A stretch of 64,000 bases of DNA from NCBI GenBank assembly GCA_964035575.1, contig OZ037923.1, positions 124,001 to 188,000 of the forward strand, written 5' to 3'. The notes below the pieces were generated by a model that was not told where the DNA came from, did not search any database, and saw nothing but the letters and a program-made list of their open reading frames with translations. This DNA is from Rhynchopus sp. YZ270_cl-10. Taxonomy: Eukaryota > Euglenozoa > Diplonemea > Diplonemida > Diplonemidae. This document shows positions 14,565-63,009 of the stretch, in pieces; the first letter of the stretch is position 1; each line of letters begins with the position of its first letter. The position numbers were made by a program, and so were the translations under genes.

Positions 14565-15524
14565 TCAGAGACACTTCTGCCTGCCCTCAATAGCTCTCAA
14601 TGCTGCTAAGTCCTGTGTTTCTAAAGAAGTGCAACCTTCAAGAAATCTGCTACCAGTTCGTGTCACAGCACTCAGTCCTGCAATGTCTATTGCGGTCAAC
14701 GCCGCGCAATTTAGTAAGAAGTAGTCCCCAAGACTCGTGACACTGCTCAATCCTGCAAAGTCGATGGTGGTTAACGACTTGGAACATGATAAGAAGAAGT
14801 TCCCAAGGCTTGTGACATTGCTCAATCCTGCAAAATCGATGGAGGTTAACGACATGGAACCTGATAAGAAGCAGTGTCCAAGGCTTGTGACACTGCTTAA
14901 TCCTGCAAAGTCGATGGTCGTTAATGCCGTGCACTTTGCTAAGCACCTTGTCCCAATGCTTGTGACACTGCTCAATCCTGCAAAGTTGAATGGCTCAAAA
15001 GTGCGTAATGACGTGCAGTCGTACAGGAAGCACTCGCCTATTGTCGTGACGTTGCGCAACCCAGACAAGTTAACTGATTCCAATGATGAACACTGGGATA
15101 AGAAGTGGTCACCAATCGCAGTAATAGCCAACGGGGCACTCAGATCAAGGCTGCGTAAATTAGTGCATGTCAGGAACGTGTGCGGAATCGCAGTTACAAC
15201 TTGTGCCTGCAGAAACAACTGCGCAACCTCGGGGTCTTCCACACGCGCAAGCCTCGCTGGTGTGAGGTCTGTCTCACCCAATGCACGAAGAGCTGCAATG
15301 GCTTTGTACGAATCTTTCTGCGTCAATACGACTGTGTCGCCAGCACTCAGCGCTGTGATGTTGATGTCCTCTCCTTCGTCGTCCCTTCCAAAGCCCATGT
15401 CAAAGCTGTCTTCAGCAAACCCCGCTGCAGCTGCCACCTTCTGCCGCAGGTGCTTCGCTGTGTCATCCACACCCACATCGACGACGTACGTCTGACCATC
15501 AAAACCCTCGATGTTGAGATGCAT
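14565..15524 (-). CDS. UBL-LRR family protein, copy 1 (7 LRR units)
   Basis: A 319-residue protein. Residues 1-72 (MHLNIEGFDGQTYVVDVGVD onward) have the ubiquitin-like pattern: beta hairpin, KHLRQKVAAAAGF helix, then an ALSAGDTVVLTQ strand. A conserved linker (KAIAALRALGETDLTPARLA) follows, then seven 25-residue repeats of the form LTxIDFAGLSSVTSLGxxFLxxxxS, resembling BspA/GALA-type LRRs, and a cap ending EGRQKCL. No signal peptide or TM segment, so probably cytosolic. ATG 15524 is chosen although this copy has an in-frame ATG at 15626, because the upstream frame is not kept in copies 2, 4 and 5. Binding partner unknown. Confidence 0.85.
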   Translation of the reverse strand: MHLNIEGFDGQTYVVDVGVDDTAKHLRQKVAAAAGFAEDSFDMGFGRDDEGEDINITALSAGDTVVLTQKDSYKAIAALRALGETDLTPARLARVEDPEVAQLFLQAQVVTAIPHTFLTCTNLRSLDLSAPLAITAIGDHFLSQCSSLESVNLSGLRNVTTIGECFLYDCTSLRTFEPFNFAGLSSVTSIGTRCLAKCTALTTIDFAGLSSVTSLGHCFLSGSMSLTSIDFAGLSNVTSLGNFFLSCSKSLTTIDFAGLSSVTSLGDYFLLNCAALTAIDIAGLSAVTRTGSRFLEGCTSLETQDLAALRAIEGRQKCL

Positions 15525-15815
15525 TCGTGTGTTGTGTGTTTTGTGTGTTTTCTGTTGTGGGAGTTGAGTGGTTGCAAGTAGAATCAGGCAATTCTCCCAC
15601 ATTCCCTGGTTCCCAATGCGGGTCATGCCACAGTTCTCCTCACTCCGGAGGTAAACACAGACTCTCAGAAGCGGGTGCGCCTTGAGTTTCTGTTAAACAC
15701 ATTCGCGACAAGTGAGCCATCACGTGTGTGGTCGGAGGATCTGTGAATGGACGTCAATGCCAAGAAGGTTGACGAGGCAGAGAAAGCACAGTCTTCCATT
15801 CCCACAGCCAGTTAG
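15525..15815 (-). promoter_or_regulatory. Conserved UBL-LRR 5' module, copy 1
   Basis: Sequence upstream of the ATG is shared almost base for base with copies 2 and 3: CA-rich leader (ACAACAGAAAACACACAAAA), a CATGACCCGCATTGGGAA block, a GAAACTCAAGGCGCACCCGC block, then GATCTGTGAATGGACGTCAA (plus-strand reading) and GACGAGGCAGAGAAAGCACA. Its retention implies promoter/5'-UTR function or recent duplication; I cannot separate these. Confidence 0.5.
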
Positions 15816-17054
15816 CGTCAGTCCTGATTTCAACAAAAACTATCAATAACTTAATAGCAGAGGAGGAGGGGTCAATAAAAATGTTCCATCTTTCTTTTTT
15901 GTGGTATGTTTTGCAAAACGTAACAAAGAAAATTATTACGCGTCCACTCGACGTTTGAATAAAGAAAACTAGAGACGAAAAGGGGTTTGGGGGGGAGAGT
16001 TAAATTCCTGAACGCATCACCACACTCAGTCAAACATTTTATTTTATTGATAATCACCGTACGCTGTTCACAATAATAAACGAAAAATTGACAATTTTCC
16101 TGATGAAGATGTAATGAGTGTGGGTGAGATGAGGAGCACGGGAGGGAAAAAACGACTGTTGAAACTTCAGCAGATTGGTTTCTGAAAATAACCCTGTTTC
16201 AGTCCTAAGGAAAAAAAGAAAGAGAAAAGCTTTGCGAGATGAGTGTGCCTCACGGTGTACACGCATATTGTAACCACTATCGTCGCGTTAACACGCTGGG
16301 TTTGAAGATGGGTTTGTCTCTCGTCACAAAGACAGAGAAAATGCTGCGTGACTCATTGCTCAAAAGACAAAAAAAACGGAAAGGGAAAAAATAAAGTGAA
16401 GTTATTAATGCAGGCACCTCCGACTGACCCACGTACGATGCCAGCCATCCGGATGAAAGCACAAGTACCCTGCGGCCAACAACAGAAGATGTAAAAAGGA
16501 AACCTAATGACTGGCCCGTACCGTAAGAGAACGAGGGCGGTTCACAACCGCTCGACAGCCGGCGGCCCACCTTCCGTTGAAGAGTTGTGAGCTTACAGGT
16601 ACCGCAGTTCGCTGCACCCAACGCTTGATGCACGACAGTCTGCACAAGAGAGCAGAAACCCATGGTGTTTGTTGCAAAAACACAAAAAGGGGTGGGCGGG
16701 TCCAGCATTTATATACCCTGCCAGGGTGAACTTGCATAAAAGAGGGCAGGAGCCGAGGGCGAGGATGACAAGACATACAGTGGGGGTAGATCACGCTTCA
16801 GGATAGTGATCAAAACAAAAGAGTAGATGAATAGTGAGAATACGCATCTCAGCTCATGCAAACAAACATAAAACACAAAAAGCTTGTCAGATGAGTGTGC
16901 CTCACGGTGTAGACACATATGGTAACCACAATCGTCGTGTTGGAAAACGACGGGTTTGAAGATGGGCTTGTATCTCGTCACAAAGACGAAGAAAATGTTC
17001 GAGACTCGCTACTCTTTTCTTGTTGCTCAAAAAACAACAAAAAAAAATGGGGAA
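15816..17054. other. Spacer with duplicated blocks between UBL-LRR copies 1 and 2
   Basis: AT-rich. Positions 15845-16215 match 49085-49265 (upstream of copy 4), including GAAACTTCAG.AGATTGGTTTCTGA. A 120-bp block ending GTCACAAAGAC occurs at 16216-16345 and again at 16877-17000. Positions 16433-16465 share GTACGATGCCAGCCATCCGG with the zinc-knuckle ORF at 63425. The minus-strand ORF at 16277-16708 shows no family I recognise. Confidence 0.5.
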
Positions 17055-17056
17055 GG
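16877..17056. repeat. 3'-flank block of UBL-LRR copy 2, holds an empty insertion site
   Basis: Shared with 19174-19321 and with 25930-26050 (GAGTGTGCCTCACGGTGTAG, then AATCGTCGTGTTGGAA.ACGA). The stretch ATGGGGAAGGGAAAAATAAA (from 17048) is the uninterrupted version of the site into which the 19322-23595 element inserted. Confidence 0.8.
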
Positions 17057-17174
17057 GAAAAATAAAGGTTGTCTGTGGTTCGCTTCCTACCCCTCCCCTT
17101 GCAACACATCCCCACCGTGCAAAGTATCCTCCTGTTGTGACACCAGCACCGAACCTCTGAACCTTGCCGCTGCC

Positions 17175-18206
17175 TCAGAGACACTTCTGCCTGCCCTCAA
17201 TAGCTCTCAATGCTGCTAAGTCCTGTGTTTCTAAAGAAGTGCAACCTTCAAAAAAACTGCTACCAGTTCGTGTCACAGCACTCAGTCCTGCAATGTCTAT
17301 TGAGGTTAACGCTGCGCAATTCAGTAAGAAGCACTCCCCAAGGCTTGTCACACTGCTCAATCCTGAAAAGTCGATGGAGGTTAACTGGGAAAATGATAAG
17401 AAGTGGTCCCCAAGGCTTGTGACATTGCTTAATCCTGCAAAGTTGATGGAGGTTAACGACTGGGACTGTGATAAGAAGCAGTCCCCAAGGCTTGTGACAT
17501 TGCTTAAGCCTGCAAAGTCGATTGAGGTTAACGCCCGGGAACCTGATAAGAAGTAGTCCCCAAGACTTGTGACACTGCTTAAGCCTGCAAAGTTGATGTT
17601 GGTTAACGCCGGGCAGTTTGCTACGAACCCTGTCCCAATGCTTGTGACACTACTTAATCCTGCAAAGTTGAATGGCTCAAAAGTGCGCAATGACGGGCAG
17701 GCGTACAGGAAGTAATTGCCTATTGTCGTGACGTTGCGCAACCCAGACAAGTTAACTGATTCCAATGATGAACACTTGGATAAGAAGTGGTCACCAATCG
17801 CAGTAATAGCCAACGGGGCACTCAGATCAAGGATACGTAAATTAGTGCCTGCCAGGAACTTGTGCGGAATCACAGTTACAACTTGTGCCTGCAGAAACAA
17901 CTGTGCAACCTCGGGGTCTTCCACACGCGCAAGCCTCGCTGGTGTGAGGTCTGTCTCACCCAATGCACGAAGAGCTGCAATGGCTTTGTACGAATCTTTC
18001 TGCATCAATACGACTGTGTCGCCAGCACTCAGCGCTGTGATGTTGATGTCCTCTCCTTCGTCGTCCCTTCCAAAGCCCATGTCAAAGCTGTCTTCAGCAA
18101 ACCCCGCTGCAGCTGCCACCTTCTGCCGCAGGTGCTTCGCTGTGTCATCCACACCCACATCGACGACGTACGTCTGACCATCAAAACCCTCGATGTTGAG
18201 ATGCAT
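17175..18206 (-). CDS. UBL-LRR family protein, copy 2 (8 LRR units)
   Basis: 343 residues with the same ubiquitin-like head and linker as copy 1 and eight LRR units; the sixth lacks one residue (FLSFSQ-LTSI). Variable sites include GTGFVANCPA, GDYFLSGSRA, GDCFLSQSQS and GECFLLNCAA. The C-terminal cap has FFEGCTS where copies 1, 4 and 5 have (F/Y)LEGCTS. No in-frame extension upstream: the leader is cut by the arm of a large palindrome 19 bp before the ATG, so expression may differ from the sister copies. Confidence 0.85.
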   Translation of the reverse strand: MHLNIEGFDGQTYVVDVGVDDTAKHLRQKVAAAAGFAEDSFDMGFGRDDEGEDINITALSAGDTVVLMQKDSYKAIAALRALGETDLTPARLARVEDPEVAQLFLQAQVVTVIPHKFLAGTNLRILDLSAPLAITAIGDHFLSKCSSLESVNLSGLRNVTTIGNYFLYACPSLRTFEPFNFAGLSSVTSIGTGFVANCPALTNINFAGLSSVTSLGDYFLSGSRALTSIDFAGLSNVTSLGDCFLSQSQSLTSINFAGLSNVTSLGDHFLSFSQLTSIDFSGLSSVTSLGECFLLNCAALTSIDIAGLSAVTRTGSSFFEGCTSLETQDLAALRAIEGRQKCL

Positions 18207-18224
18207 TCGTGTTTTGTGTGTTTT

Positions 18225-18595
18225 GTGATGGCTCACTTGTCGCGAATGTGTTTAACAGAAACTCAAGGCGCACCCGCTTCTGAGAGTCTGTGTTTACCTC
18301 CGGAGTGAGGAGAACTGTGGCATGACCCGCATTGGGAATCAGGGAATGTGGGAGAATTGCCTGATTCTACTTGCACCACTCCACTCCCACAACAGAAAAC
18401 ACACAAGTGTGTTTTGTGTGTTTTCTGTTGTGGGAGTGGAGTGGTGCAAGTAGAATCAGGCAATTCTCCCACATTCCCTGATTCCCAATGCGGGTCATGC
18501 CACAGTTCTCCTCACTCCGGAGGTAAACACAGACTCTCAGAAGCGGGTGCGCCTTGAGTTTCTGTTAAACACATTCGCGACAAGTGAGCCATCAC
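18225..18595. repeat. 182-bp-arm palindrome in the 5' region of UBL-LRR copy 2
   Basis: Arms 18225-18406 and 18414-18595 are reverse complements with a 7-base spacer (GTGTGTT); I found no mismatch reading through. Each arm is the conserved 5' module. The right arm is in the normal orientation and the left arm is an inverted copy placed between it and the ATG. Identical 69-codon ORFs on the two strands reflect this symmetry. Confidence 0.93.
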
Positions 18596-19321
18596 GTGTG
18601 TGGTCGGAGGATCCGTGAATGGACGTCAATGCCAAGAAGGTTGACGAGGCAGAGAAAGCACAGTCTTCCATTCCCACAGCACATCAGAAGCACTGGCTGC
18701 ACTTTCTGTTGAGTTTCACTCAGGGAAAAAAACAGGGTGGGACAAATGTTTTTTGTATTTTTTCTTCTTTCCTTTTTTCTTGCATCTTTTCCCCCTTTCT
18801 ATATTTAGCATTTCCCCACCCCCAAATCTCCCGTTTCCCTGTCCACTGAACAGCCCTTTGTTTACCTACACTTATTCCGACATGCGGGAGGAAACGCAGC
18901 GTTGTACAGGCCCTGCAAAACTCCAGGAAAAATAGAGTCCTGACTACAGGGGAAGGTTTCCCATACAAATAGACAAACGTCCTAAACCGACCCCTGCCGT
19001 CAACTGGCCGACAAATGACAAACACCAAAATAAAGGAACCTTCAAAGAAGAAACCTGCCTCTGTTGTCCACAACATCGGAGCAACTACAAAAAAAAAAAT
19101 GGTAAACCCCTTCCAGTATGTTAACTGCAACAACAACACCCGACAAAAATGAGCTACAAACCTCAACAAAAGAAAAAGCCTTTCCGAGATGAGTGTGCCT
19201 CTGAACACTCATAATGTAACCACAATCGTCGTGTTGGAACACGATGGGTTTGAAGATGTGCTTGTCTCTCGTCACAAAGACACAAAAAATGCTCGCTACT
19301 CCAAAGAAAAAATGGGGAAGG
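18596..19321. repeat. Segmental duplication of 25016-26050
   Basis: Nearly identical to 25016-25500 and 25715-26050, including the GGACGTCAATGCCAAGAAGG block and CCCCTTCCAGTATGTTAACT. The partner carries about 205 bp of extra sequence at 25506-25712. This shows that the copy 2 and copy 3 blocks are duplicates. Confidence 0.85.
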
Positions 19322-23718: not shown

Positions 23719-24828
23719 TCAGAGACACTTCTGCCTGCCCTCAATAGCTCTCAATGCTGCTAAGTCCTGTGTTTCTAAAGAAGTGCAACCTTCAAAAAAT
23801 CTGCTACCAGTTCGTGTCACAGCACTCAGTCCTGCAATGTCCATTGAGGTTAACGCCACGCAATTAGATAAGAAGCAGTCTCCAAGACTTCTGATACTGC
23901 TTAATCCTGCAAAGTCGATGGTGGTTAACGACTGGGAATCTGATAAGAAGTAGTCCCCAAGGCTTGTGACACTGCTTAATCCTGCAAAGTTGATGGAGGT
24001 TAACGACTGGGCTTCCAGTAAGAAGTAGTCCCCAAGGCTTGTGACACTGCTCAATCCTGTAAAGTTGATGGAGGTTAACGACTGGGAACATGATAAGAAG
24101 TGGTCCCCAAGGCTTGTGACATTGCTTAAGCCGGCAAAGTTGATGGAGGTTAGTGACTGGGAACCTGATAAGAAGCACTTCCCAAGGCTTCTGATGCTGC
24201 TCAATCCTGCAAAATCGATGGAGGATAACGACCCGGAACCTGTCAAGAAGTAGTCCCCAAGGCTTGTGACACTGCTCAATCCTGCAAAGTTGAATGGCTC
24301 AAAAGTGCGCAATGACTTGCAGTCGTACAGGAAGTAATCGCCTATTGTCGTGACGTTGCGCAACCCAGACAAGTTAACTGATTCCAATGATGAACACTTG
24401 GATAAGAAGTGGTCACCAATCGCAGTAATAGCCAACGGGGCACTCAGATCAAGGCTAAATAAATTCGTGAATATCAGGAACTTGGACGGAATCGCAGTTA
24501 CAACTTGTGCCTGCAGAAACAACTGCGCAACCTCGGGGTCTTCCACACGCGCAAGCCTCGCTGGTGTGAGGTCTGTCTCACCCAATGCACGAAGAGCTGC
24601 AATGGCTTTGTACGAATCTTTCTGCATCAATACGACTGTGTCGCCAGCACTCAGCGCTGTGATGTTGATGTCCTCTCCTTCGTCGTCCCTTCCAAAGCCC
24701 ATGTCAAAGCTGTCTTCAGCAAACCCCGCTGCAGCTGCCACCTTCTGCCGCAGGTGCTTCGCTGTGTCATCCACACCCACATCGACGACGTACGTCTGAC
24801 CATCAAAACCCTCGATGTTGAGATGCAT
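23719..24828 (-). CDS. UBL-LRR family protein, copy 3 (9 LRR units)
   Basis: 369 residues: ubiquitin-like head as in copies 1 and 2, linker, nine LRR units and the EGRQKCL cap. Variable sites include GDYFLTGSGS, GKCFLSGSQS, GDHFLSCSQS, GDYFLLEAQS, GDYFLSDSQS and GDCFLSNCVA; two units have SSIRSLG in place of SSVTSLG. A 111-bp stretch (24067-24177) is identical to 48135-48245 in copy 4 although the neighbouring units differ, suggesting exchange between copies. An in-frame ATG upstream (24930) exists, but 24828 is preferred on family grounds. Confidence 0.85.
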   Translation of the reverse strand: MHLNIEGFDGQTYVVDVGVDDTAKHLRQKVAAAAGFAEDSFDMGFGRDDEGEDINITALSAGDTVVLMQKDSYKAIAALRALGETDLTPARLARVEDPEVAQLFLQAQVVTAIPSKFLIFTNLFSLDLSAPLAITAIGDHFLSKCSSLESVNLSGLRNVTTIGDYFLYDCKSLRTFEPFNFAGLSSVTSLGDYFLTGSGSLSSIDFAGLSSIRSLGKCFLSGSQSLTSINFAGLSNVTSLGDHFLSCSQSLTSINFTGLSSVTSLGDYFLLEAQSLTSINFAGLSSVTSLGDYFLSDSQSLTTIDFAGLSSIRSLGDCFLSNCVALTSMDIAGLSAVTRTGSRFFEGCTSLETQDLAALRAIEGRQKCL

Positions 24829-25160
24829 TCGTGTTTTGTGTGTTTTGTGTGTTTTCTGTTGTGGGAGCTGAGTGGTTGCAAGTAGAATCAGGCAATTCTC
24901 CCACATTCCCTGGTTCCCAATGCGGGTCATGCCACAGTTCTCCTCACTCCGGAGGTAAACACAGACTCTCAGAAGCGGGTGCGCCTTGAGTTTCTGTTAA
25001 ACACATTCGCGACAAGTGAGCCATCACGTGTGTGGTCGGAGGATCTGTGAATGGACGTCAATGCCAAGAAGGTTGACGAGGCAGAGAAAGCACAGTCTTC
25101 CATTCCCACAGCCCATCAGAAGCACTGGCTGTGCTTTTTGTTGAGTTTCACTCAGGGAAA
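24829..25160 (-). promoter_or_regulatory. Conserved UBL-LRR 5' module, copy 3
   Basis: Same leader and upstream blocks as copies 1 and 2, in a single orientation without the inverted arm seen at 18225-18406. Confidence 0.5.
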
Positions 25161-26704
25161 AAACAGGGTGGAACAAATGTTTTTTGTATTTTTTCTTCTT
25201 TCCTTTTTTCTTGCATCTTTTCCCCCTTTCTATATTTAGCATTTCCCCACCCCCAAATCTCCCGTTTCCCTGTCCACTGAACAGCCCTTTGTTTACCTAC
25301 ACTTATTCCGACATGCGGGAGGAAACGCAGCGTTGTACAGGCCCTGCAAAACTCCAGGAAAAATGGAGTCCTGACTACAGGGGAAGGTTTCCCATAAAAA
25401 CAGACAAACGTCCTAAACCGACCCCTGCCGTCAACTGGCCGACAAATGACAAACACCAAAATAAAGGAACCTTCAAAGAAGAAACCTGCCTCTGTTGTCC
25501 ACAACAGAGAGAAAAATTGGAGGTACAATTTTTGAAAAATGGTGTCGTTTGAGAAAAACAAACAAACGGACGCGCTGTGTGAAAAACGAGTGTTTCTCTG
25601 CGCGTGATATTTTGTGGGGAAGAATAAAACGTTATGAAAAAAGCTCGTTGCGTTCCCACTATCGTTTCCGCTGCGCTCTCACTAGCGTTCCCACTCCATT
25701 CGGTTTTCTCTTACTTAACAACTACAAAAAAAAAATGGTAAACCCCTTCCAGTATGTTAACTGCAACAACAACACCCGACAAAAATGAGCTACAAACCTC
25801 AACAAAAGAAAAAGCTTCTAAGATGAACCTCTACAGTGTGTAGTGTTCCCTATAGTGTTCAAAACAAAAAGAGCAGTTGAAACGTGTGAAAACGCATCTC
25901 AGCTCATGCAAACAAACATAAAACACAAAAAAGCTTTGTGAGATAAGTGTGCCTCACGGTGTAGACACATAATGTAACCACAATCGTCGTGTTGGAACAC
26001 GATGGGTTTGAAGATGAGCTTGTCTTTTAGTCACAAAGACAGAGAAAATATACATGTAGATCGGGTCTTTTATTTGCCCGCAGCGCTCCAATCTTTTTAG
26101 AATTGACAAAAAACAATTGTTTTATCAAAAAACACACCCAAAGGTGTTTTGCTTAACACCTCCTCCTATTGGGTGCCGCTGAAAGGGCGTTTTTTATGAA
26201 AAAGACATGCCACGCACTATTCATAATAACGTGTTGATGGGTAAGTAAAAGGGGGGAAAAAATGGTTTTTTCGTTGATTGCTCAATTACCCTGTTTGGAG
26301 AGGTGCGATTGGCCGTATCGGAGGACCCATTTCACCTTTAAGATACGCTCGTAGTTATAAAATAAAGAAGTTTGCGAATACACAACCCCCTCACCATAAG
26401 AGGCACTGCTAAAAATACATTGAAAAATAACACATTTCTTGATGACGCAACAAAGACAGATGCCTGACTATTAGCCTGCATCTCGAGAAAAAAAAATTAA
26501 ACTATGTCACAGGGCAAGGCGGGTATGTGCATGCACGTTATTTTTTTTGCGTGTGTTACTGTACGAAAAAAAAAAATATGGCGTGCACAATGTCCCTCAG
26601 AGGTGTTCAACAACAGCAATTATCATTATTTGGTTTTGACAAGAAGTAGGCAATAATACAACTTCGAGCCAAGTTTTATTTTTTTTTTTTTGGTTTTCAA
26701 CAAC
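25161..26704. other. Duplicated spacer, then gene-free AT-rich DNA
   Basis: 25161-26050 is the duplicate of 18720-19290 with about 205 bp of extra sequence at 25506-25712. 26051-26704 holds poly-A/T runs and no gene I can support. Confidence 0.5.
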
Positions 26705-40846: not shown

Positions 40847-41760
40847 GACGTATCTAACGCAGTTGAATGCTCCAGAACCTACAGAGGAAGGAATTGCTGA
40901 AGAACGCTCTGCGTGTGTTGTGTTTTTGGCAGTGAAAAGGGATGCTGCTGGCAACGTTGTGCACAGGTTGAGATATGTGCCATGCAATGCTCACTCAACC
41001 TGCGCTTCTCACCATATGAACATAAACGTATCTAACGCAGTTGAATGCTCCAGAACCTACAGAGGAAGGAATTGCTGAAGAACGCTCTGCGTATTTGGGG
41101 TGGTGGCTGAAGGGAAAGAGAGCTTCCGCACGTTTGATGGAATGTTGCAAAGAAAAAATAAAGAGGGCCATCTGATTCTCAGATATCTAACGCAGTTGAA
41201 TGCTCCAGAACCTACAAAAGAAGGAATTGCTGAAGAACGCTCTGCGTGTGTTGTGTTTTTGGCAGTGAAAAGGGATGCTGCTGGCAACGTTGTACAGGTT
41301 GAGATATGTGCCATGCAATACTCACTCAACCTGCGCTTCTCATCATATGAACATAAACGTATCTAACGCAGTTGAATGCTCCAGAACCTACAGAGGAAGG
41401 AATTGCTGAAGAACGCTCTGCGTATTTGAGGTGGTGGCTGAAGGGAAAGAGAGCTTCCGCACGTTTGATGGAATGTTGCAAAGAAAAAATAAAGAGGGCC
41501 ATCTGATTCTCAGATATCTAACGCAGTTGAATGCTCCAGAACCTACAAAAGAAGGAATTGCTGAAGAACGCTCTGCGTGTGTTGTGTTTTTGGCAGTGAA
41601 AAGGGATGCTGCTGGCAACGTTGTACAGGTTGAGATATGTGCCATGCAATACTCACTCAACCTGCGCTTCTCATCATATGAACATAAACGTATCTAACGC
41701 AGTTGAATGCTCCAGAACCTACAGAGGAAGGAATTGCTGAAGAACGCTCTGCGTATTTGA
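40847..41760. repeat. Alternating tandem repeat A-B1-A-B2 (about 331-bp period)
   Basis: A 66-bp A unit (starts TATCTAACGCAGTTGAATGC, ends CGCTCTGCGT) occurs six times, near 40849, 41026, 41182, 41357, 41513 and 41688. The spacers alternate: B1 (GTGTTGTGTTTTTGGCAGTG..ATAAAC) and B2 (ATTTGGGGTGGTGGCTGAAG..CTCAGA). Two full 331-bp periods are almost identical. Frames through it stay open for 88 codons per period, but I see no gene. Confidence 0.88.
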
Positions 41761-42511
41761 GGTGGCTGAGGGTGCCTACACTACTGAAAGCTGAAAACAA
41801 CGCAAAAAAAATTCTTCCTTTTTTCAACAACCAATCTGTCTGTGTTGTCTACAGACAGCTCTCCCTTTTTGTTATTTTTTTTTTTTTGTTTTTTTTTGCT
41901 TTGAAACGTGGTTGTTTCAGACATACACAGAGTGGGTGGTACGCCTTTTCACTATTTTTTTTTTTGTTATTTTTGAGTTCCCTTTTTTTCATGTATGAAT
42001 ATAATTCTGTTCAGCAAAAACAAAAAACAGTAACATTTTATGGCAAGATGAAAACCCGCAGCCTCCCATTGCAAGTCACCTTTAACGAACAAAACGCTAT
42101 CTGACAAAAAAAAAACTGTTCATAAGATGATCCTAAGCCTCTCGTGCTAAGTCACCTTAACATAAAGCAACAGAAACTGCCACGGGTTGTGTGAATATAC
42201 TTACATCTTTTATTGAGAACTCCATTTTTCTTTAAATTTTTCCCCCTTTTTTACTTCAGGTAAAGAACTATTTTTTTTTTTTGCTACAAGAGAGTACAAT
42301 ACAATTTTTTTATGGGGTGTGTTTTTTTGAAGGGTAGGGAAGGATTTGTTAGGGGTTTGTATTTCTTCGTCGGGGGTTGTGGTTTTGGTTCCATAGCTTT
42401 TTTTGAAAAAAACTGAACAAAAAAATTGCTCAAATTTTCAAATGACAACCGCTAGTCGATTCCGAGGTGTGCATTTTTTGTTCCCATTTTTTTTAAAAAA
42501 ATTTTCTTATT
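41761..42511. other. AT-rich stretch, no gene seen
   Basis: Poly-T-rich DNA between the alternating repeat and TIR element 3. No supported feature. Confidence 0.4.
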
Positions 42512-42713
42512 TGGTGTTACCGAAAGGGCCCATATTGACAGGTCCTTGACAGGTCCTTGACATGTCCCCGACAGTGGGGGGTGTCATTTTATAATTTGCT
42601 TTATAGTGGGGTTTTTTTTTGCCCGGGAAAATCACCCACTAAGGAAGGGGCAGTGCTCAAAACCGGCCGAAGTCTGGAAATAGCCATCTTCTGGGCTATG
42701 TAGGCATCATAGG

Positions 42714-43609
42714 TAGTACCATAGTACCATAGTACCATAGTACCATAGTACCATAGTACCATAGTACCATAGTACCATAGTACCATAGTACCATAGTACC
42801 ATAGTACCATAGTACCATAGTACCATAGTACCATAGTACCATAGTACCATAGTACCATAGTACCATAGTACCATAGTACCATAGTACCATAGTACCATAG
42901 TACCATAGTACCATAGTACCATAGTACCATAGTACCATAGTACCATAGTACCATAGTACCATAGTACCATAGTACCATAGTACCATAGTACCATAGTACC
43001 ATAGTACCATAGTACCATAGTACCATAGTACCATAGTACCATAGTACCATAGTACCATAGTACCATAGTACCATAGTACCATAGTACCATAGTACCATAG
43101 TACCATAGTACCATAGTACCATAGTACCATAGTACCATAGTACCATAGTACCATAGTACCATAGTACCATAGTACCATAGTACCATAGTACCATAGTACC
43201 ATAGTACCATAGTACCATAGTACCATAGTACCATAGTACCATAGTACCATAGTACCATAGTACCATAGTACCATAGTACCATAGTACCATAGTACCATAG
43301 TACCATAGTACCATAGTACCATAGTACCATAGTACCATAGTACCATAGTACCATAGTACCATAGTACCATAGTACCATAGTACCATAGTACCATAGTACC
43401 ATAGTACCATAGTACCATAGTACCATAGTACCATAGTACCATAGTACCATAGTACCATAGTACCATAGTACCATAGTACCATAGTACCATAGTACCATAG
43501 TACCATAGTACCATAGTACCATAGTACCATAGTACCATAGTACCATAGTACCATAGTACCATAGTACCATAGTACCATAGTACCATAGTACCATAGTACC
43601 ATAGTACCA
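42714..43609. repeat. 8-bp satellite (TAGTACCA) x 112
   Basis: 112 head-to-tail copies (896 bp) with no variant unit seen. The 295-352-codon ORFs through it are artefacts of an 8-bp period read as an octapeptide. Confidence 0.98.
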
Positions 43610-43875
43610 TAACCCTGTATCAGTTGAGGAAGGGTTTGGGGAATGGTCGAGGACATCATAAGCCTACGTGGGGGCGGTACGTGGCCAATAGCTCACCTGT
43701 CACATCAGCAGCGATGCGACGTACGATTCTGTAACGAAGGAACACTTTGATTGAGTGGTGACGCTGGCCAGCAACAGGCGGACGCAGGACAGGATCCGAG
43801 CGTTCTGCCTACAGGACAAGGAGCTGCGCGAGGGGTTCGACACAGCGCCAACGTAGGGCGTTGACCTCTTCCTTC
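43610..43875. other. GC-balanced island between the two satellites
   Basis: About 260 bp of higher-GC unique sequence. On the minus strand a short open stretch (EEVNALRWRCVEPLAQLLVL, then stop) could be a relic of a captured gene. Nothing assignable. Confidence 0.2.
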
Positions 43876-44344
43876 GTACACAGTACACAGTACACAGTAC
43901 ACAGTACACAGTACACAGTACACAGTACACAGTACACAGTACACAGTACACAGTACACAGTACACAGTACACAGTACACAGTACACAGTACACAGTACAC
44001 AGTACACAGTACACAGTACACAGTACACAGTACACAGTACACAGTACACAGTACACAGTACACAGTACACAGTACACAGTACACAGTACACAGTACACAG
44101 TACACAGTACACAGTACACAGTACACAGTACACAGTACACAGTACACAGTACACAGTACACAGTACACAGTACACAGTACACAGTACACAGTACACAGTA
44201 CACAGTACACAGTACACAGTACACAGTACACAGTACACAGTACACAGTACACAGTACACAGTACACAGTACACAGTACACAGTACACAGTACACAGTACA
44301 CAGTACACAGTACACAGTACACAGTACACAGTACACAGTACACA
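43876..44344. repeat. 7-bp satellite (GTACACA) x 67
   Basis: 469 bp, 67 perfect units of GTACACA. Open frames on both strands are heptapeptide repeats caused by the 7-bp period. Confidence 0.98.
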
Positions 44345-44667
44345 CCGGCAAACATGGTCAAAATCAGGTGGAATATACATAAGTACATCATGGGGTAGGG
44401 AACAGGTAGCGCCGCAGGCGCACGGTACCCAACTTTTTTCTTTTATATTTTCCCTTTTCTCTGCTTTCTTTTGATTGCGCGAGCCGATTGCTCTCCACGG
44501 TGGGGTCACATGTGTGTCCAAAACTATCTGAAGTACACAGTACACAGTACAGTACTGTGGGGAAAAAATCCACTGTATAACCAAATTATAAAATGACACA
44601 CCCCCCCTATTTTGACAGGTCCTTGACAGGTCCTTGACATGTCCTTGACAGGTGTACGGTAACACCA

Positions 44668-45888
44668 TTATTCACTCCCCCTTATTTTTTTTTTCCAAAT
44701 AATCTTTTGCTGTCTTCTCAAATGTAGCTGATAAATGGACTACACAGACTTCGCATTTTATTTTTTTAAATCCCTGAGGACAGCTGTAACAAGGAGTAAC
44801 ATAATGTAATGGGGAAGTCCACCAAAAAAAAGATTGGAGAAGTGGAGCTATAGATTATCCAAAAAAAAAAAAAAAAAGAGGGGGAACAAGAAAAGTGAAG
44901 TATTTTGGGTAGGAAAGAAAAAGGTAAAAAAAAAAAGAACACAAAGACGCACACACACCACACCGACTACTTTTTCTCGCATAAAGAACAATAACAGAAA
45001 TTGTTATTGCATTTTTTGAACTTTTCATTTTCCTTTTTTGCTGGTTTCTACAATATACTGGAGGGGTGTGTGGATAGGGGAGAATAGGAACGCGGGTATC
45101 GTTTGCTTTGTTTTTTGCTTCTTTTTTTTTTTTGAAAAATGTTTTTGTTTCGTCTTTTTTTTTTGAAAAACTGAGTGTAGTTCACAACACTTTCCCTTTT
45201 TTTTCATCGAGCACATCACACATTTCCCCCCCCCACCCACCCACCCCTTTTTTTTTTTGAAATTTTAGTGCAGAGCATCAGATGATGCGCTTCACCATAC
45301 ACCCGTCTATGTGTGGGCTTTCTTTTTTTTGAACGACGTACGAAAAACACAAAAAGAAACAACAAAAAAACGTTCCCAAGCGATGTGATCCCGGGCCAGT
45401 GTTCTAAAATACGTGATCTACCCCCCACGTATGCTTATAAATACGAATCAATACGTATTTTTGAACGCTGATGATCCCGGGCACCTGGTAGAACCCCCGG
45501 GAGACTTCCGGGAGAACCCCTCTGGAGGGAGGGGTCACACCAAGCTCACAAAAAAAAAATGCAAAAATCAAGATAAGATACAAAAGGCTACCCAGAAGAT
45601 GCAGAGCAACAATCTGGGGGAAAAAAACACAAAAAAAAAAAATCTAACTTTTTGATAAAACGAAATGCTTATCAAAGGGAAAACGGGGGAAATTGGGAAA
45701 TTGGGAAATTCAGAAAAAATGAATAAATTGATACACTGGTAGGTCAAGAGAAGAGATGAAGTTGTTTTTTTTTTTTTTTTTTGAAAACTTGGCTGTATTA
45801 GTGTAGCCACCCTAGAGTGTGCTCCACTATACAACCAAGCTATTTTTTTTGTGAAATATTTTTTTTTCTTCAATTATTTTTCACCAAA
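44668..45888. other. Intergenic region, no gene seen
   Basis: Homopolymer-rich. GATCCCGGGC(A/C) occurs near 45387 (CGATGTGATCCCGGGCCAGT) and 45472 (GATGATCCCGGGCACCTGGT), with CTCTGGAGGGAGGGG nearby. No ORF of note. Confidence 0.4.
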
Positions 45889-47903: not shown

Positions 47904-48896
47904 TTATTTGGACCCCTGCAAAGAAGTGCAACCTTCAAGATACCTGATACCAGTTCGTGTCACAGCACTCAGTCCTGCAATGTCCATTGAAGTTAACGCC
48001 GCGCAATCAAGTAAGAAGCACTCCCCAAGATTTGTGACATTCCTCAATCCTGCAAAGTCAATGGAGGTTAACGACTCGGAGTCTGATAAGAAGTAGTTCC
48101 CAAGGCTTGTGACATTGCTCAGTCCTGCAAAGTCGATGGAGGTTAACGACTGGGAACATGATAAGAAGTGGTCCCCAAGGCTTGTGACATTGCTTAAGCC
48201 GGCAAAGTTGATGGAGGTTAGTGACTGGGAACCTGATAAGAAGCAGTTCCCAAGGCTTGTGACACTGCTTAGTCCTGCAAAGTCGATGGAGGTTAACGAA
48301 TCGGAACCTGTCAAGAAGTAGTTCCCAAGGCTTGTGACACTGCTCAATCCTGCAAAGTTGAATGGCTCAAAAGTGCGGAATGACATGCAGGCGTACAGGA
48401 AGTAATCACCTATTGTCGTGACGTTGCGCAACCCAGACAAGTTAACTGATTCCAATGATGAACACTGGGATAAGAAGTGGTCACCAATCGCAGTAATAGC
48501 CAACGGGGCACTCAGATCAAGGATACGTAAATCAGTGCATATCAGGAACTTGTGCGGAATCACAGTTACAACTTGTGCCTGCAGAAACAACTGCGCAACC
48601 TCGGGGTCTTCCACACGCGCAAGCCTCGCTGGTGTGAGGTCTGTCTCACCCAATGCACGAAGAGCTGCAATGGCTTTGTACGAATCTTTCTGCATCAATA
48701 CGACTGTGTCGCCAGCACTCAGCGCTGTGATGTTGATGTCCTCTCCTTCGTCGTCCCTTCCAAAGCCCATGTCAAAGCTGTCTTCAGCAAACCCCGCTGC
48801 AGCTGCCACCTTCTGCCGCAGGTGCTTCGCTGTGTCATCCACACCCACATCGACGACGTACGTCTGACCATCAAAACCCTCGATGTTGAGATGCAT
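47904..48896 (-). CDS. UBL-LRR family protein, copy 4 (8 LRR units, 3'-truncated)
   Basis: 330 residues with the standard ubiquitin-like head and linker and eight LRR units (variable sites GNYFLTGSDS, GNCFLSGSQS, GDHFLSCSQS, GNYFLSDSES, GECFLLDCAA). After EGCTSLQ the family cap is lost: the sequence diverges at a breakpoint near 47925 and stops at TAA after GSK, so the usual ETQDLAALRAIEGRQKCL end and the conserved 3' flank are missing. The frame is intact, so a slightly shortened product is likely. Block 24067-24177 of copy 3 is identical to 48135-48245 here. Confidence 0.83.
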   Translation of the reverse strand: MHLNIEGFDGQTYVVDVGVDDTAKHLRQKVAAAAGFAEDSFDMGFGRDDEGEDINITALSAGDTVVLMQKDSYKAIAALRALGETDLTPARLARVEDPEVAQLFLQAQVVTVIPHKFLICTDLRILDLSAPLAITAIGDHFLSQCSSLESVNLSGLRNVTTIGDYFLYACMSFRTFEPFNFAGLSSVTSLGNYFLTGSDSLTSIDFAGLSSVTSLGNCFLSGSQSLTSINFAGLSNVTSLGDHFLSCSQSLTSIDFAGLSNVTSLGNYFLSDSESLTSIDFAGLRNVTNLGECFLLDCAALTSMDIAGLSAVTRTGIRYLEGCTSLQGSK

Positions 48897-58659: not shown

Positions 58660-58894
58660 TTTAAAGTTTAAGGTGTACCTCTGCGAGCGTAGCGAGCGGA
58701 AAATTTTTAAGGTGTACTTCCGCGAGCGAAGCGAGCGGGAAAAAAAATGAAGGTGTACCTCCGCGAGCGTAGCGAGCGGAAAATTTTTTGAAGGTGTACC
58801 GCCGCGAGCGAAGCGAGCGGGAAAATATTTAAAGGTGTACCTCCGCGAGCGTAGCGAGCGGAAAAAATTTTGAAGGTGTACATTAAACTTTAAA
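58660..58894. repeat. About 52-bp tandem repeat of CGCGAGCGNAGCGAGCG, 5 units
   Basis: Units are AAGGTGTACCTCCGCGAGCG, then A/TAGCGAGCGG and a short poly-A/T linker. The array is bounded by TTTAAAGTTTAA (58660-58671) and TTAAACTTTAAA (58883-58894), inverted copies that suggest a small element of its own. Confidence 0.8.
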
Positions 58895-60174
58895 CAAGGG
58901 GGTACGCCCACTTTTGTCGTCATCCTAAACTACCCGAAATTGAGCCCAATTGCATTTCCGGATTGATTGCGGAAAGTGGTAAATGAACAACACCAAATAC
59001 CTACGCCCCCCCCGTGCATATGTCCATGTTGGTCGAGGCTCGGACATATACACATACTCAGTTCAGGTAGTATACTACAGTGTACAGCGGCAAAAACCCA
59101 TTCCGAGCTTTCGGCCCCGCACGTTGGCGGGGCATCTCCGTTCATATGTGGCCTGGTAAACCCATTCCGAGCTTTCGGCTCCGCACGTTGGCGGGGCATC
59201 TCTGATCATATTTGGCCTGGTAAAAAAAAAAAAAAAAAAATTTAAAAAAGGCGATCATATTTCATATCTCTTACCGATAGCCCTGTCCCTAGACCGGGTA
59301 AAATAAAAAAAAAAATATTTACCCGGTCTGGGGGAAAAAAAAAAAATAACCACCCGGCCAGGCCAAAAAAAAACCCAAAATGATATATCTTGGGGGTACC
59401 TCACACAAGCCTCTAAGAGTGACCAGAACTGGCCTCCTGAACAAAGTGACCCCGTCACAGCCAGAACGCGACCCAATTGGTCAAACGCCGAAGGAACAGG
59501 AAGCATGCAGCATGGCGAAATAATAAAAGTAGCGTACCGTGCGCCTGCGGCGCAAGATTGCAAGCCACCCATATAGTTTGGCTGTAAAATGTGCAATTTT
59601 AAGCACAATATTTTGAAATGTTGCGTACCGTGGCTTCGCCAAAACTTTCGTTCAGCAAAATATGGAAGTAACATTTACGAGAACTGAAGATAATGACCAA
59701 CGACAGTGCCATTTGATGTCAACATTTTTTTAGAAATGTTGCGTACCGTGGCTTCGCCAGGAACCTTTGCCATGACTGCCGTTTCTTTTTGTAGATGTCT
59801 ATACGAGGAAACGTCCGCACGCTACCGACCTGACATGATTTTTTTGCTTCTTCCGCAAAGGTGGGGAACGTGAGATGATATGCAATATGCGAGTGAATGC
59901 AGCAAGTTTAACGGTTTACCGGGACATTTTCGCTGGAGGCGAAAAAATTTTTTTTGACCACTTTTTTGCCAGACCGGGTAGACCGGGTAGAATTTAAAAA
60001 TGCTTTTTCAAGATAAAACCCTGTGTTTGTTAGAACAAAAAAAAAGAAAAAAAAGCAAAGCAGCGTGTACACATGACCCGCCTATCACCATATTTCAAGG
60101 TCCGAAACCCCCATATTTTTTTTTTTGCGGGGCATCTCTTGGGGGCGCATGCCTTTCACTCCCTCCTCTGCCAC

Positions 60175-60894
60175 CTACTCTAGCAGCCGGTCGCCTTCTC
60201 CGTGTGATTTTCTATTAACCACTCTTTTCAGCTGACCGGGTGTACCTTGAGATTCTGTGTCGTTTTTCATTGCGGAAATAAAAAATTTGTTTTCCAGTCG
60301 CAGGAGGAGGAGGTAGGCTGTGTACAACGGGAAGTACGCTGTCAAGACGTCAATCAGGAGGAAGAGGATGCGATACGGTGCAAACCCCAGAGTGGTGTAC
60401 GTGAGGGGCATACTGCTGCATTCGTTGGTTCCCCACGCGTCGCAGGATTTGTTCGCGAAGGAGTTGTATTTGTCCAGGTCACTTCTCGTGCACGAATCGT
60501 CATTCAAACAACCCAAAACAGGAACAGCTGCCTGGCACCCCTGAAACAATCTTTGCTGCTGTTGACAAGACAGTGCGACCATAATGACTGTCAGAACCAA
60601 ATAGGCTACTCTCGCACTGCTAATGAAACACCCGTACGTAACGAACGCAGAAAACGCACCAGCATTGTTCTTGTACATCGAGTACGCACCCAACGGGAGC
60701 ATAGAGTAAACAAGTGAAACTGCAACGTAGATTGCATCTCTGTCAGCCTCGCTCCAATGCCATCTACGGTAGAGCTGTACCCCAGCGGTGATAGTATTCA
60801 AAACAGTGAACAGAACCAACTGCTTAACGAAGAGGTCCTTCAGAGTCTGCCACGGGACCCTGTTCTCTCCACACACCACACTCCACAACATCAT
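60175..60894 (-). CDS. Four-TM protein with Cys-rich loop, paralogue 2
   Basis: 239-residue membrane protein homologous along its length to the product of 52371-53069: VLFTVLNTITAGVQLY (TM1), AIYVAVSLVYSMLPLGAYSMY (TM2; split AIYVAVSLVYSM, LPLGAYSMY), SAFVTYGCFISSARVAYLVLTV (TM3; split SAFVTYGCFISS, ARVAYLVLTV) and ILFLLIDVLTAYFPLYTAYL (TM4). The exposed loop keeps the cysteine pattern SCQ..LFQGC, VLGCLNDDSC, LDKYNS, KSCDAW, ECSSM. ATG 60894 (MMLW). The basic C-terminal tail is unlike the acidic tail of paralogue 1. Function unknown; surface receptor, transporter subunit and tetraspanin-like scaffold are all possible. Confidence 0.7.
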   Translation of the reverse strand: MMLWSVVCGENRVPWQTLKDLFVKQLVLFTVLNTITAGVQLYRRWHWSEADRDAIYVAVSLVYSMLPLGAYSMYKNNAGAFSAFVTYGCFISSARVAYLVLTVIMVALSCQQQQRLFQGCQAAVPVLGCLNDDSCTRSDLDKYNSFANKSCDAWGTNECSSMPLTYTTLGFAPYRILFLLIDVLTAYFPLYTAYLLLLRLENKFFISAMKNDTESQGTPGQLKRVVNRKSHGEGDRLLE

Positions 60895-61740
60895 CGGGAC
60901 ACGCTAGTAACGGGAGGGGGGAAAAGCTGATAATGTGGGGGGGGGTAGGGGGCCTGTATGTTTTGGTATTTTTTGAATGGTATTTTTACGAGAGAGCAGA
61001 AACCCAAAAACACAAAAAAGGGGAGGGAGTAGGGGGGTCCGTCCGGCCGTTTTTGCTGTCCCAAACCACTTTTTTTTGTAAAAACCCGCGAAAACCCCGA
61101 AAAAAAAACACCCCCAAACCCCCAAAAAATCACCCAAAACCACGAAAAACACACTTTTCAAATTTGAGCACTATTTCGTACTTTTTTTTCTGATTTTTTT
61201 GGTGTTTTTCCCCGCTTTTTCAGCTTTTTCCCTGGAATTATACCCCCTAATATGCCTATAGAATCCCTGTACTGCTCACTGAGACAGCATAGCGACCAGA
61301 GGCTCCTTATTCATCGTACCGGTGTCTTCGTCGTCAAGGGGTGCACAATCTGCCGCAAATTCCCGCAACTTTGTCTTTGTGAAAAGATGAAGCACTTTAG
61401 TGTTGTAGTTTTCAAGTTGCTACTTCTGGGTGCTTTGCATGGACCTGCCTTTGTGGTGCGCTTTGGTGTATCCTGCGGCAAGTTCTTCCCTTGAGAGAGA
61501 CGGAACCCAACCTAGACTGTAGAGGATGTCTATATCGGGTGGGGTCTCTGATCCATGTGTGCGGCGTATATATTTCCCCCAACACTCCATGTTTGGCCAG
61601 GGCCTCTCCAGCGTGTCAGTTGCAAAAAATGAGGGTTGTCTGTGGTTCGCTTCCTAACCCGCCCTTTCAACACATCCCCACCGTGCAAAGTATCCTCCTG
61701 TTGTGACACCAGCACCGAACCTCTGAACCTTGCCGTTGCC
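60895..61740. other. Intergenic region with one weak coding signal
   Basis: 60895-61250 is homopolymer-rich and gene-free. On the minus strand 61386-61276 reads LFTKTKLREFAADCAPLDDE, DTGTMNKEPLVAMLSQ-stop, loosely like an EF-hand helix-loop-helix with Pro at loop position 12. Not supported by a start or splice pair. 61626-61740 is the conserved 3' flank of the UBL-LRR genes. Confidence 0.25.
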
Positions 61741-63009
61741 TCAGAGACACTTCTGCCTGCCCTCAATAGCTCTCAATGCTGCTAAGTCCTGTGTTTCTAA
61801 AGAAGTGCAACCTTCAAGAAATCTGCTACCAGTTCGTGTCACAGCACTCAGTCCTGCAATGTCTATTGAGGTTAACGCCGCGCAATTCAGTAAGAAGCAG
61901 CCCCCAAGGCTCGTGACACTGCTCAATCCTGCAAAGTCGATGGCGGTTAACGACTCGGAATCTGATAAGAAGCGGTGCCCAAGGCTTGTGACACTGCTCA
62001 CACTGCTTAATCCTGCAAAGTCCATGGTGGTTAACGACTGGGAACCTGATAAGAACCAGTCCCCAAGGCTTGTGACACTGCTTAATCCTGCAAAGTCGAT
62101 GGTGGTTAACGACTGGGAATCTGATAAGAACCAGTCCCCAAGGCTTGTGACACTGCTTAATCCTGCAAAGTCCATGGTGGTTAACGACTGGGAACCTGAT
62201 AAGAACCAGTCCCCAAGGCTTGTGACACTGCTTAATCCTGCAAAGTCGATAGTGGTTAACGACTGGGAATCTGATAAGAAACAGTTCCCAAAGCTTGTGA
62301 CATTCCTCAATCCTGTAAAGTCGATGGAGGTTAACGACTGGGAACGTGATAAGAAGTGGTGCCCAAGGCTTGTGACACTGCTCAATCCTGCAAAGTCGAT
62401 GGAGGTTAACGACTCGGAACATGATAAGAACCAGTTCCCAAGGCTTGTGACACTGCTCAATCCTGCAAAGTTGAATGGCTCAAAAGTGCGTAATGACGTG
62501 CAGTCGTACAGGAAGTAGTTGCCTATTGTCGTGACATTGCGCAACCCAGACAAGTTAACTGATTCCAATGATGAACACTCAGATAAGAAGTGATCACCAA
62601 TCGCAGTAATAGCCAACGGTGCACTCAGATCAAGGATACGTAAATCAGTGCATATCAGGAACTTGTGCGGAATCACAGTTACAACTTGTGCCTGCAGAAA
62701 CAACTGCGCAACCTCGGGGTCTTCCACACGCGCAAGCCTCGCTGGTGTGAGGTCTGTCTCACCCAATGCATGAAGAGCTGCAATGGCTTTGTACGAATCT
62801 TTCTGCGTCAATACGACTGTGTCGCCAGCACTCAGCGCTGTGATGTTGATGTCCTCTCCTTCGTCGTCCCTTCCAAAGCCCATGTCAAAGCTGTCTTCAG
62901 CAAACCCCGCTGCAGCTGCCACCTTCTGCCGCAGGTGCTTCGCTGTGTCATCCACACCCACATCGACGACGTACGTCTGACCATCAAAACCCTCGATGTT
63001 GAGATGCAT
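61741..63009 (-). CDS. UBL-LRR family protein, copy 5 (11 LRR units, longest)
   Basis: 422 residues: the same ubiquitin-like head (one change, ALHALGETD), the linker and eleven LRR units, then the EGRQKCL cap. Units 6-7 and 8-9 come from a 150-bp repeat (copies starting at 62021 and 62171), giving alternating GDWFLSGSQS/GDWFLSDSQS. The unit after them has a 3-residue insertion (SSVSSVTSLG), a short slip in register. The upstream region differs from copies 1-4: only the CA-rich leader and TTTTCTGTTGTGGGAGTGGA block are kept before unrelated sequence, so its promoter may differ. The 3' flank is conserved. Confidence 0.85.
   Translation of the reverse strand: MHLNIEGFDGQTYVVDVGVDDTAKHLRQKVAAAAGFAEDSFDMGFGRDDEGEDINITALSAGDTVVLTQKDSYKAIAALHALGETDLTPARLARVEDPEVAQLFLQAQVVTVIPHKFLICTDLRILDLSAPLAITAIGDHFLSECSSLESVNLSGLRNVTTIGNYFLYDCTSLRTFEPFNFAGLSSVTSLGNWFLSCSESLTSIDFAGLSSVTSLGHHFLSRSQSLTSIDFTGLRNVTSFGNCFLSDSQSLTTIDFAGLSSVTSLGDWFLSGSQSLTTMDFAGLSSVTSLGDWFLSDSQSLTTIDFAGLSSVTSLGDWFLSGSQSLTTMDFAGLSSVSSVTSLGHRFLSDSESLTAIDFAGLSSVTSLGGCFLLNCAALTSIDIAGLSAVTRTGSRFLEGCTSLETQDLAALRAIEGRQKCL

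Follow-up and report, generated by a model that had tools for sequence, protein, structure and literature searches.

Large receptor repertoires under diversifying selection occur in animals, plants and filamentous fungi. Lamprey VLRs are secreted or surface proteins, assembled somatically, with LRRNT and LRRCT caps and with variation on the concave strands, and TRIM5alpha/TRIM21-type receptors carry B-box fingers together with a fast-diversifying SPRY recognition domain. BspA-like LRR proteins of protists (Entamoeba, Histomonas and others) are mainly known as surface proteins, while TBCE and TBCEL, single-copy conserved tubulin cofactors, combine a ubiquitin-like domain (UBL) with LRRs in one cytosolic protein. 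A fungal case of a diversifying receptor repertoire, as far as the accessible part of the source describes it, is the HNWD family of Podospora anserina, with 10 genes and 69 repeats (PMC1805685). In the literature searched, judged mainly from titles and listings, we found no such repertoire in free-living flagellates and none with a ubiquitin head; the papers found on diplonemids and leucine-rich repeats apparently do not deal with such a family, and the words 'leucine-rich', 'LRR' and 'ubiquitin' are absent from the accessible part of PMC10161547.

We analysed a window of 64,000 nucleotides from the diplonemid Rhynchopus sp. YZ270_cl-10, for which a preliminary description had proposed five UBL-LRR genes with a constant head and an interchangeable recognition array. 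All five open reading frames are present on the minus strand, and their LRR module counts (7, 8, 9, 8 and 11) were borne out (Table 1). The proposed 25-residue unit, seen in the DNA as a period of 75 nt, holds in general but not throughout: the second module has 28 residues in all five genes, gene 2 (17175) contains one module of 24 and gene 5 (61741) one additional module of 28, and the last module of gene 4 (47904) is short. Coding starts at an internal methionine (MHLNIEGFDG...) in each of the five, the listed reading frames extending into the 5' leader. The N-termini, described as near-identical, are more than that, as codons 1–67 do not differ by a single nucleotide among the five genes. 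Amplification together with flanking DNA was likewise confirmed, the upstream flanks being co-duplicated at 86–98% identity (families D11 and D14); the upstream segment also occurs in inverted orientation directly ahead of the start of gene 2. The conserved leader before the ATG is likely to be a spliced-leader acceptor site, with the putative CAACAG acceptor lying some 30 nt ahead of each ATG. Spliced-leader gene arrays were found in the genome with up to three mismatches to a spliced-leader pattern; the exact pattern gave two matches, both lacking a splice donor, and was rejected.

Table 1. Coordinates of the UBL-LRR genes, their parts and flanks in the window.
Feature	Position	Strand	Description or basis
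UBL-LRR gene 1	14565..15524	-	319 aa: UBL head, linker helices, cap, 7 LRRs, short conserved tail
UBL-LRR gene 2	17175..18206	-	343 aa: 8 LRRs, one of 24 residues
UBL-LRR gene 3	23719..24828	-	369 aa: 9 LRRs; AlphaFold2 model, mean pLDDT 92.3
UBL-LRR gene 4	47904..48896	-	330 aa: 8 LRRs; final LRR and tail truncated; 3' flank differs
UBL-LRR gene 5	61741..63009	-	422 aa: 11 LRRs, some modules near-identical repeats
Ubiquitin-like domain of gene 3, residues 1-70	24619..24828	-	structure model and fold comparison
Linker of gene 3, residues 71-108, three short helices between UBL and LRR cap	24505..24618	-	DSSP of models
C-terminal part of gene 3 (cap, nine LRRs, short tail), residues 109-369 plus stop codon	23719..24504	-	
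Upstream flank of gene 1, common to genes 2 and 3 (86% vs gene 2 copy)	15573..15859	-	family D11
Upstream flank of gene 2, common to gene 3 (98%)	18445..19023	-	families D11, D14
Upstream flank of gene 3, common to gene 2 (98%)	24877..25454	-	families D11, D14
Conserved leader ...CCACTCCCACAACAG-AAAACACAC...ATG, gene 5 as example (range approximate)	63010..63062	-	putative spliced-leader acceptor

The copies are not assembly artefacts of one collapsed locus, since they differ in repeat number, variable residues and outer flanks. A genome-wide search for the head, which had been suggested as a check, found at least 448 places on 58 contigs, most of them outside the coordinates first described. 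Of 450 heads listed, 449 are free of stop codons; at least one copy, C91:36549, is broken, its reading frame being lost while the downstream DNA still encodes LRRs. A protein collection places the proteins of this copy and of gene 1 on a contig of different size (1,250,237 bases, against 1,223,046 for C91 here), so that these two genes, at least, are present in a further assembly. Of 7998 candidates scored in this collection, 282 were relatives at E ≤ 0.001 (the best 120 of the 282 being listed), and a second search gave 128 at E ≤ 0.01 among 1366 (the best 120 of 128 listed). All listed relatives are marked 'ena' except P0001, which is encoded by the window itself. P0097 and P0083 have heads 100% identical to heads in this genome, and four of the 213 proteins listed are identical to, or end in, a gene extracted from it; on these matches, and for the set as a whole rather than protein by protein, we treated the collection relatives as one species, though other diplonemids may have relatives. 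A viral origin was rejected: one scan of viral contigs with the head alignment gave 394 pattern matches, and tblastn no relative.

DNA-level analyses used 68 genes from 6 of the 58 head-bearing contigs, left from 75 head matches after removal of seven duplicates of re-fetched loci (L001-L005, L007). Tails and hydropathy were scored in 278 proteins, 213 of them taken from the collection and 65 from the extracted genes (with at least four counted twice); three of the 68 genes were omitted because the end of the fetched stretch cuts them. Eight head patterns defined groups among 218 proteins, 66 of which fit none and were classed as 'other'.

The UBL was modelled alone, because LRR matches dominate a structure search with the full-length protein and fill its match list. 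Modelled in this way, the head adopts the ubiquitin beta-grasp fold, as had been predicted. Profile matches vary: PF00240 scored 12.1–12.7 bits in the three window copies scanned (curated cut-off 25.4), passed the cut-off in P0044, P0083, P0089 and P0097, and matched 30 of 75 family members scanned at E ≤ 0.001. The five window copies have no C-terminal Gly-Gly around residue 76, where the UBL runs on into helices (...VVLMQKDSYKAIAAL), and so lack the ending of a conjugatable ubiquitin-type modifier. The notion of a constant effector head holds for the five window copies and fails for the family as a whole: in 68 genes, dN/dS of the head is about 1 (0.96 for UBL residues 1-70, 1.16 for the linker), and the Ile44-equivalent positions vary. 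Within the subfamily, there is no clear sign of purifying selection on the head.

The array is of the BspA type, PF13306 (LRR_5) scoring 74–104 bits in the three window copies scanned (cut-off 27.7), and the best Foldseek and VIA matches were 4fs7, 4fd0 and TpLRR 6mlx. The alternative assignment to a GALA-type ladder was not sustained, as no F-box model was seen in three window copies (E ≤ 1) or in 75 members (Pfam, E ≤ 0.001). The same 75 of 218 members, scanned against Pfam-A at E ≤ 0.001, contained no NB-ARC or NACHT and no fused E3, protease or NB domain; because NB-ARC and NACHT are lacking in these members, the family is not one of NLRs, contrary to the suggested likeness to NLR arrays. 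P0065 and P0060 gave matches below cut-off to zf-B_box (15.4 bits, cut-off 24.1) and to an ANCHR-like B-box (17.0 bits, cut-off 27), with a visible Cys/His pattern in both. None of 81 window-type proteins has a hydrophobic stretch in its first 70 residues by a hydropathy test, and the UBL starts at Met1. Tails are group-specific, being CaaX-like, of nuclear basic type, or neither, and module number varies widely across the family.

Diversifying selection is sharply localised in the repeats, which is how a recognition array would be expected to behave. In the family test on the window head group, the variable positions of the 25-residue unit are 11, 12, 15 and 16 and, less strongly, 18 and 19. 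We used the 575 units that fit the full 25-residue regular expression, irregular units being excluded. A first run over 1115 nearest-neighbour pairs gave pN/pS of 2.26 at variable and 0.35 at framework codons. When unit pairs were chosen by framework likeness, pN/pS was > 2 at variable codons against 0.31 in the framework; as this pairing biases framework pS low, we rely on the ratio at the variable codons themselves. The 43 units that share one framework carry 41 different variable strings, and the fixed set of positions changes while the scaffold is conserved, concave strand included. At fixed places in the array, diversifying selection was detected in two of three sets; with the head tree, the variable positions of LRR1 fell short of significance (1.10, p 0.34), and in the five window copies the LRR1 variable codons have pN below pS (0.057 and 0.200). 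Pairwise ratios at fixed positions over all genes are only 0.91–1.85, with silent sites partly saturated, and recombination between units may inflate the site tests. Silent-site divergence is much higher in arrays than in heads. The dN/dS estimates cover the window head group, variability in other groups being scored at the protein level; position 8 is not selected in the window group, yet ranks within the top six for variability in six of nine groups, so the stripe is not quite identical everywhere. The variable residues sit between the convex mini-strand and the following concave strand, and would face outward and form a side stripe.

We consider it probable that the family is a very large germline repertoire of intracellular recognition proteins, each with a UBL head and a BspA LRR solenoid, diversified for binding a fast-changing partner. 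The outward stripe would contact this partner, candidates being proteins of viruses, bacteria or endosymbionts, or allelic variants of self proteins. Tentatively, and with somewhat less confidence, we propose that hundreds of germline, intracellular receptors make up an innate immune-like repertoire, with the UBL as common output module, the LRR stripe as paratope, tails that direct proteins to membranes or nucleus, and diversity maintained by module exchange between tandem genes in long unidirectional clusters. Through its UBL, a receptor could link itself or the partner it has bound to a shared ubiquitin-type pathway (proteasome, E3 or Cdc48-like), and the group-specific tails could station receptors in different compartments. 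Gene duplication, the gain and loss of modules, exchange between copies and point change under diversifying selection would generate new specificities, with no need for somatic rearrangement. If this is true, how unicellular flagellates recognise viruses, endosymbionts or each other becomes directly testable, with binding residues predicted codon by codon, and the family offers a natural LRR scaffold whose variable face differs from the usual concave sheet.

Other explanations fit parts of these data. The arrays might instead recognise variable conspecific self proteins in cell fusion or sex, as an allorecognition or mating-type system like fungal het-d/het-e. The population-genetic design agrees with that of HNWD as given in the accessible part of PMC1805685 (conserved repeats in variable number, few diversifying codons per repeat, concerted evolution), but several hundred loci stand here against 10 genes in the Podospora family, and neither a partner locus nor fusion biology has been seen for this organism; we regard this reading as unlikely. 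We give similarly little credence to substrate adaptors for endogenous turnover or signalling, in which the UBL would bind proteasome or E3, the LRRs pick substrates, and diversification track duplicated substrates (neofunctionalisation). A ubiquitin-pathway adaptor would suit the UBL head, the B-box-like P0060 and P0065 and the nuclear-type and CaaX-like tails; the near-saturating variation of the strings and the recent tandem duplication are more in keeping with an arms race than with a stable choice of substrates.

Selfish or structural expansion under relaxed constraint, with the variable positions as unconstrained loops, would account for a head dN/dS near 1, for duplication together with flanks and for the broken C91:36549. 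It is improbable, because relaxed constraint cannot yield pN/pS > 2 at fixed sites, the framework ratio of 0.31 shows that constraint is present, and nearly all listed heads are free of stop codons. Even less probable is targeted hypermutation, by a deaminase or a system like diversity-generating retroelements, that writes the variable codons in place of selection on random mutation. Such a process would be consistent with third bases that are mostly kept (C in 518 of 575 at codon 12, T in 514 of 575 at codon 16) while bases 1 and 2 are scrambled, and with single-step changes that are 37% transitions at variable codons against 68% at silent framework sites; however, variation is not tied to a single template base, being wide also at sites where G or T is the most frequent base, and the third base of codon 15 varies.

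Read as a germline repertoire of recognition proteins, the family shares features with several known systems. The likeness to lamprey VLRs stands for short, modular LRRs in variable number with hypervariable, by inference outward, positions; it fails for location and geometry, as the UBL-LRR genes are germline genes with a ubiquitin head, without a hydrophobic N-terminus in the window group, and vary off the concave strands. TBCE and TBCEL likewise combine UBL and LRRs, but their UBL is C-terminal, and they are single-copy and without hypervariable repeats. Likeness to TRIM5alpha/TRIM21, in B-box fingers joined to a fast-diversifying recognition domain, would be confined to P0060 and P0065, whose B-box matches are below cut-off; here the array is LRR rather than SPRY, a UBL is present and no RING match was seen. 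The BspA-like families of protists are also large and share the LRR type, but the present family differs in its UBL head, in the lack of a surface signal and in having positions under diversifying selection. The closest documented design that we found is the fungal HNWD family. As described in the accessible part of PMC1805685, HNWD/NWD genes (het-d, het-e) have highly alike modules in variable number, exchange within and between loci, and a fixed N-terminal part; they also have few codons under diversifying selection in each internally conserved repeat, a pattern that recurs here, although LRR1 alone is not significant. The two differ in parts and scale: a WD40 propeller with HET and NACHT and 10 genes with 69 repeats there, LRRs with a UBL and at least 448 heads here (PMC1805685, same part).

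The five minus-strand UBL-LRR genes of the window (bases 124001-188000 of C91, in a genome assembly of 152.4 Mb in 126 contigs) encode a common head of ~108 residues followed by modules of ~25 residues. Their coding start is an internal Met, and the coding-sequence limits are therefore as tabulated. The flanks upstream of these genes were co-duplicated, with an identity of 86-98%, and in the 17175 copy the upstream segment recurs in inverted orientation directly before the start.

UBL-LRR genes of the window, with their numbers of repeat modules
Gene	Position	Strand	LRR modules
UBL-LRR gene 1	14565-15524	-	7
UBL-LRR gene 2	17175-18206	-	8
UBL-LRR gene 3	23719-24828	-	9
UBL-LRR gene 4	47904-48896	-	8
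UBL-LRR gene 5	61741-63009	-	11

The three window copies that were scanned matched LRR_5 (BspA type) with 74-104 bits, and relatives with solved structure include 4fs7, 4fd0 and TpLRR 6mlx. In the predicted structure, the main strand of the repeat unit, AGLSSVTSLGDYFLSGSQSLTSIDF, occupies positions 22-24 and a two-residue bridge positions 8-9. F13, L14 and C/S17 are nearly fixed and hence probably core residues, while the conservation pattern and the secondary structure of the models suggest that the variable residues are surface-exposed. Genes carry from ~4 to ~30 modules (anchor counts of 5-31, which ran 0-1 above hand counts in the window copies).

The DIVERSIFYING selection tests used 575 complete units from one head group, i.e. 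68 genes, five of them in the window, on 6 contigs of one genome. Between genes, pN/pS was 2.34 at positions 11, 12, 15, 16, 18 and 19 of the unit (2.0-2.8 in 500 gene bootstraps), 0.31 at the remaining 19 positions and 0.30 at strand positions 21, 22 and 24. A parsimony site test on the 569 distinct units (site tests of this kind assume a single tree, which recombination violates) gave dN/dS values of 2.23 at position 11 (p 2.6e-5), 4.39 at 12 (p 5.9e-15), 2.56 at 15 (p 1.5e-9), 4.41 at 16 (p 4.6e-15) and ~1.7 at 18 and 19 (p 2.3e-3 and 8.2e-3); 14 of the 25 positions were under purifying selection at p < 1e-3. The third base of codon 12 is C in 518/575 units and that of codon 16 is T in 514/575, the first two bases of both being scrambled. 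The commonest framework, present in 43 units, carried 41 distinct variable strings.

Because the variable sites could themselves shape the tree, the site test was redone at fixed array places with a head-only tree. The variable positions of the cap (dN/dS 2.90, p 5e-7) and of LRR2 (1.81, p 1.6e-4) were again elevated; those of LRR1 showed no significant excess on this tree (1.10), and the remaining positions of both LRR1 and LRR2 stood at 0.45. Pairwise ratios at fixed array places were lower, 0.91-1.85, with high pS, and among the five window copies the variable codons of LRR1 changed less than silent sites. At the protein level, we ranked variability in nine sets (eight head patterns, and the proteins that fit none of them). 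All nine sets had positions 11, 12 and 15 among their top six, and eight had positions 16 and 18. Position 8, on which the window group shows no selection, reached the top six in six sets.

The preliminary description had called the head constant. This holds for codons 1-67, whose DNA is identical in all five window copies, but not across the 68 genes, where dN/dS was 0.96 for UBL residues 1-70; the linker reached 1.16. Invariant head residues in this set include V17, V19, D20, L26, V30, G35, D39 and L59, and K29 underwent no amino-acid change; positions 11, 25, 33, 40, 42, 44 and 45 changed frequently. By register, positions 42 and 44 match the Ile44 face of ubiquitin, and since both vary often, these heads are unlikely to have conserved an Ile44-type docking face. 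Taken as a set, positions 40, 42, 44, 45, 70 and 71 gave a dN/dS of 1.69 (p 0.056).

Pairwise silent divergence over all genes was 0.063 (UBL 1-35), 0.159, 0.124, 0.190, 0.249 and 0.341 (LRR2 framework), a series that matches the expectation for homogenised heads and independently reshuffled arrays and falls short of proof. For 146 of the 575 units the nearest neighbour lay within the same gene, against a shuffle mean of 9.3; for 412 it lay on the same contig, against 122.4. Identical 75-mers were rare, with six pairs, two of these between genes. Three head queries of the genome, represented by the best 150 of 1592, 1616 and 1677 candidates, had only two places in common; UBL-LRR heads occupy at least 448 distinct places across 58 contigs. 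Three equal-scoring heads ~5 kb apart (C68:608887, 613481 and 618450) are apparently very recent tandem copies. At C91:36549 (L008:1414-2370), a family copy goes out of frame inside its array, and the DNA downstream is still LRR-coding in another frame.

Strict CaaX-like ends occurred in 26 of 278 proteins over all groups (shuffled mean 1.25, maximum 5), including 14/23 in one head group (all CSVS) and 8/9 in another (7 CVCM). Basic NLS-like tails were found in 7/7, 15/16, 9/14 and 22/48 members of different head groups; both assignments are motif matches only. The 81 window-type proteins had no CaaX-like end, three NLS-like tails and, by a simple hydropathy test, no hydrophobic stretch in the first 70 residues; many share a short conserved tail. 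Two relatives from the protein collection, P0060 and P0065, have B-box-like zinc fingers (below Pfam cut-offs) and, N-terminal to the UBL, a long stretch without assigned structure.

Elsewhere in the window, an uninterrupted ORF of 1914 residues (6090-11834) encodes ankyrin repeats and polycystin/PKD channel domains. A 331-bp tandem repeat with copies 97-99% identical (repeat families D13 and D16) lies at 40851-41803; a long 8-bp and then a 14-bp minisatellite occupy 42562-44700 and give rise to spurious ORFs, e.g. 42601-43659.

A spliced-leader gene, ccaacgatttctaaagctACAGTTTCTGTACTTCATTG followed by GT, is present in tandem arrays (allowing up to 3 mismatches, 748 matches against one in the reversed control), and we take its exon to resemble the Diplonema leader closely. 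The arrays are small and occur on many contigs and on both strands, e.g. at C1:1351985 and C1:1392686-1394718 (L051-L056); on C1, plus-strand arrays stand left of minus-strand ones, i.e. not in bipolar order. L049 and L050 each contain, in the middle, an exact copy of a variant leader, CAGTTTCTGTACTTTATTG, which lacks a splice donor; in L049 it is followed by a leader-like stretch and then ATG. The two are possibly retroposed mRNAs. Gene order is bipolar at chromosome scale (e.g. C4, C46, C96, C3 and C5), with minus-strand genes left and plus-strand genes right of one switch. UBL heads showed no exception in 24 contigs with at least three heads, at least 12 of which had both strands (chance ~10^-66 under independence of the genes, an assumption that does not hold for tandem copies), and kinases none in 32 contigs with at least two, 13 with both strands (chance ~10^-6.5). 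For Diplonema papillatum, PMC10161547 describes trans-splicing, unidirectional clusters and a genome of ~280 Mb. The host of the UBL-LRR family is probably a diplonemid.

The family joins a ubiquitin fold to an LRR array that, in the head group tested, is under localised diversifying selection; it is very large, its module number varies, and its arrays diverge more than its heads. The variable stripe of the array may be the binding face, whose partner would evolve fast; the UBL head might couple to a ubiquitin-type pathway, and the tails could determine the protein's compartment. The best analogue identified is the fungal HNWD family of Podospora, for which PMC1805685 reports concerted repeats, variable repeat number, non-self recognition and diversifying selection at four codons per repeat; the two families differ in scaffold, head, host and scale.
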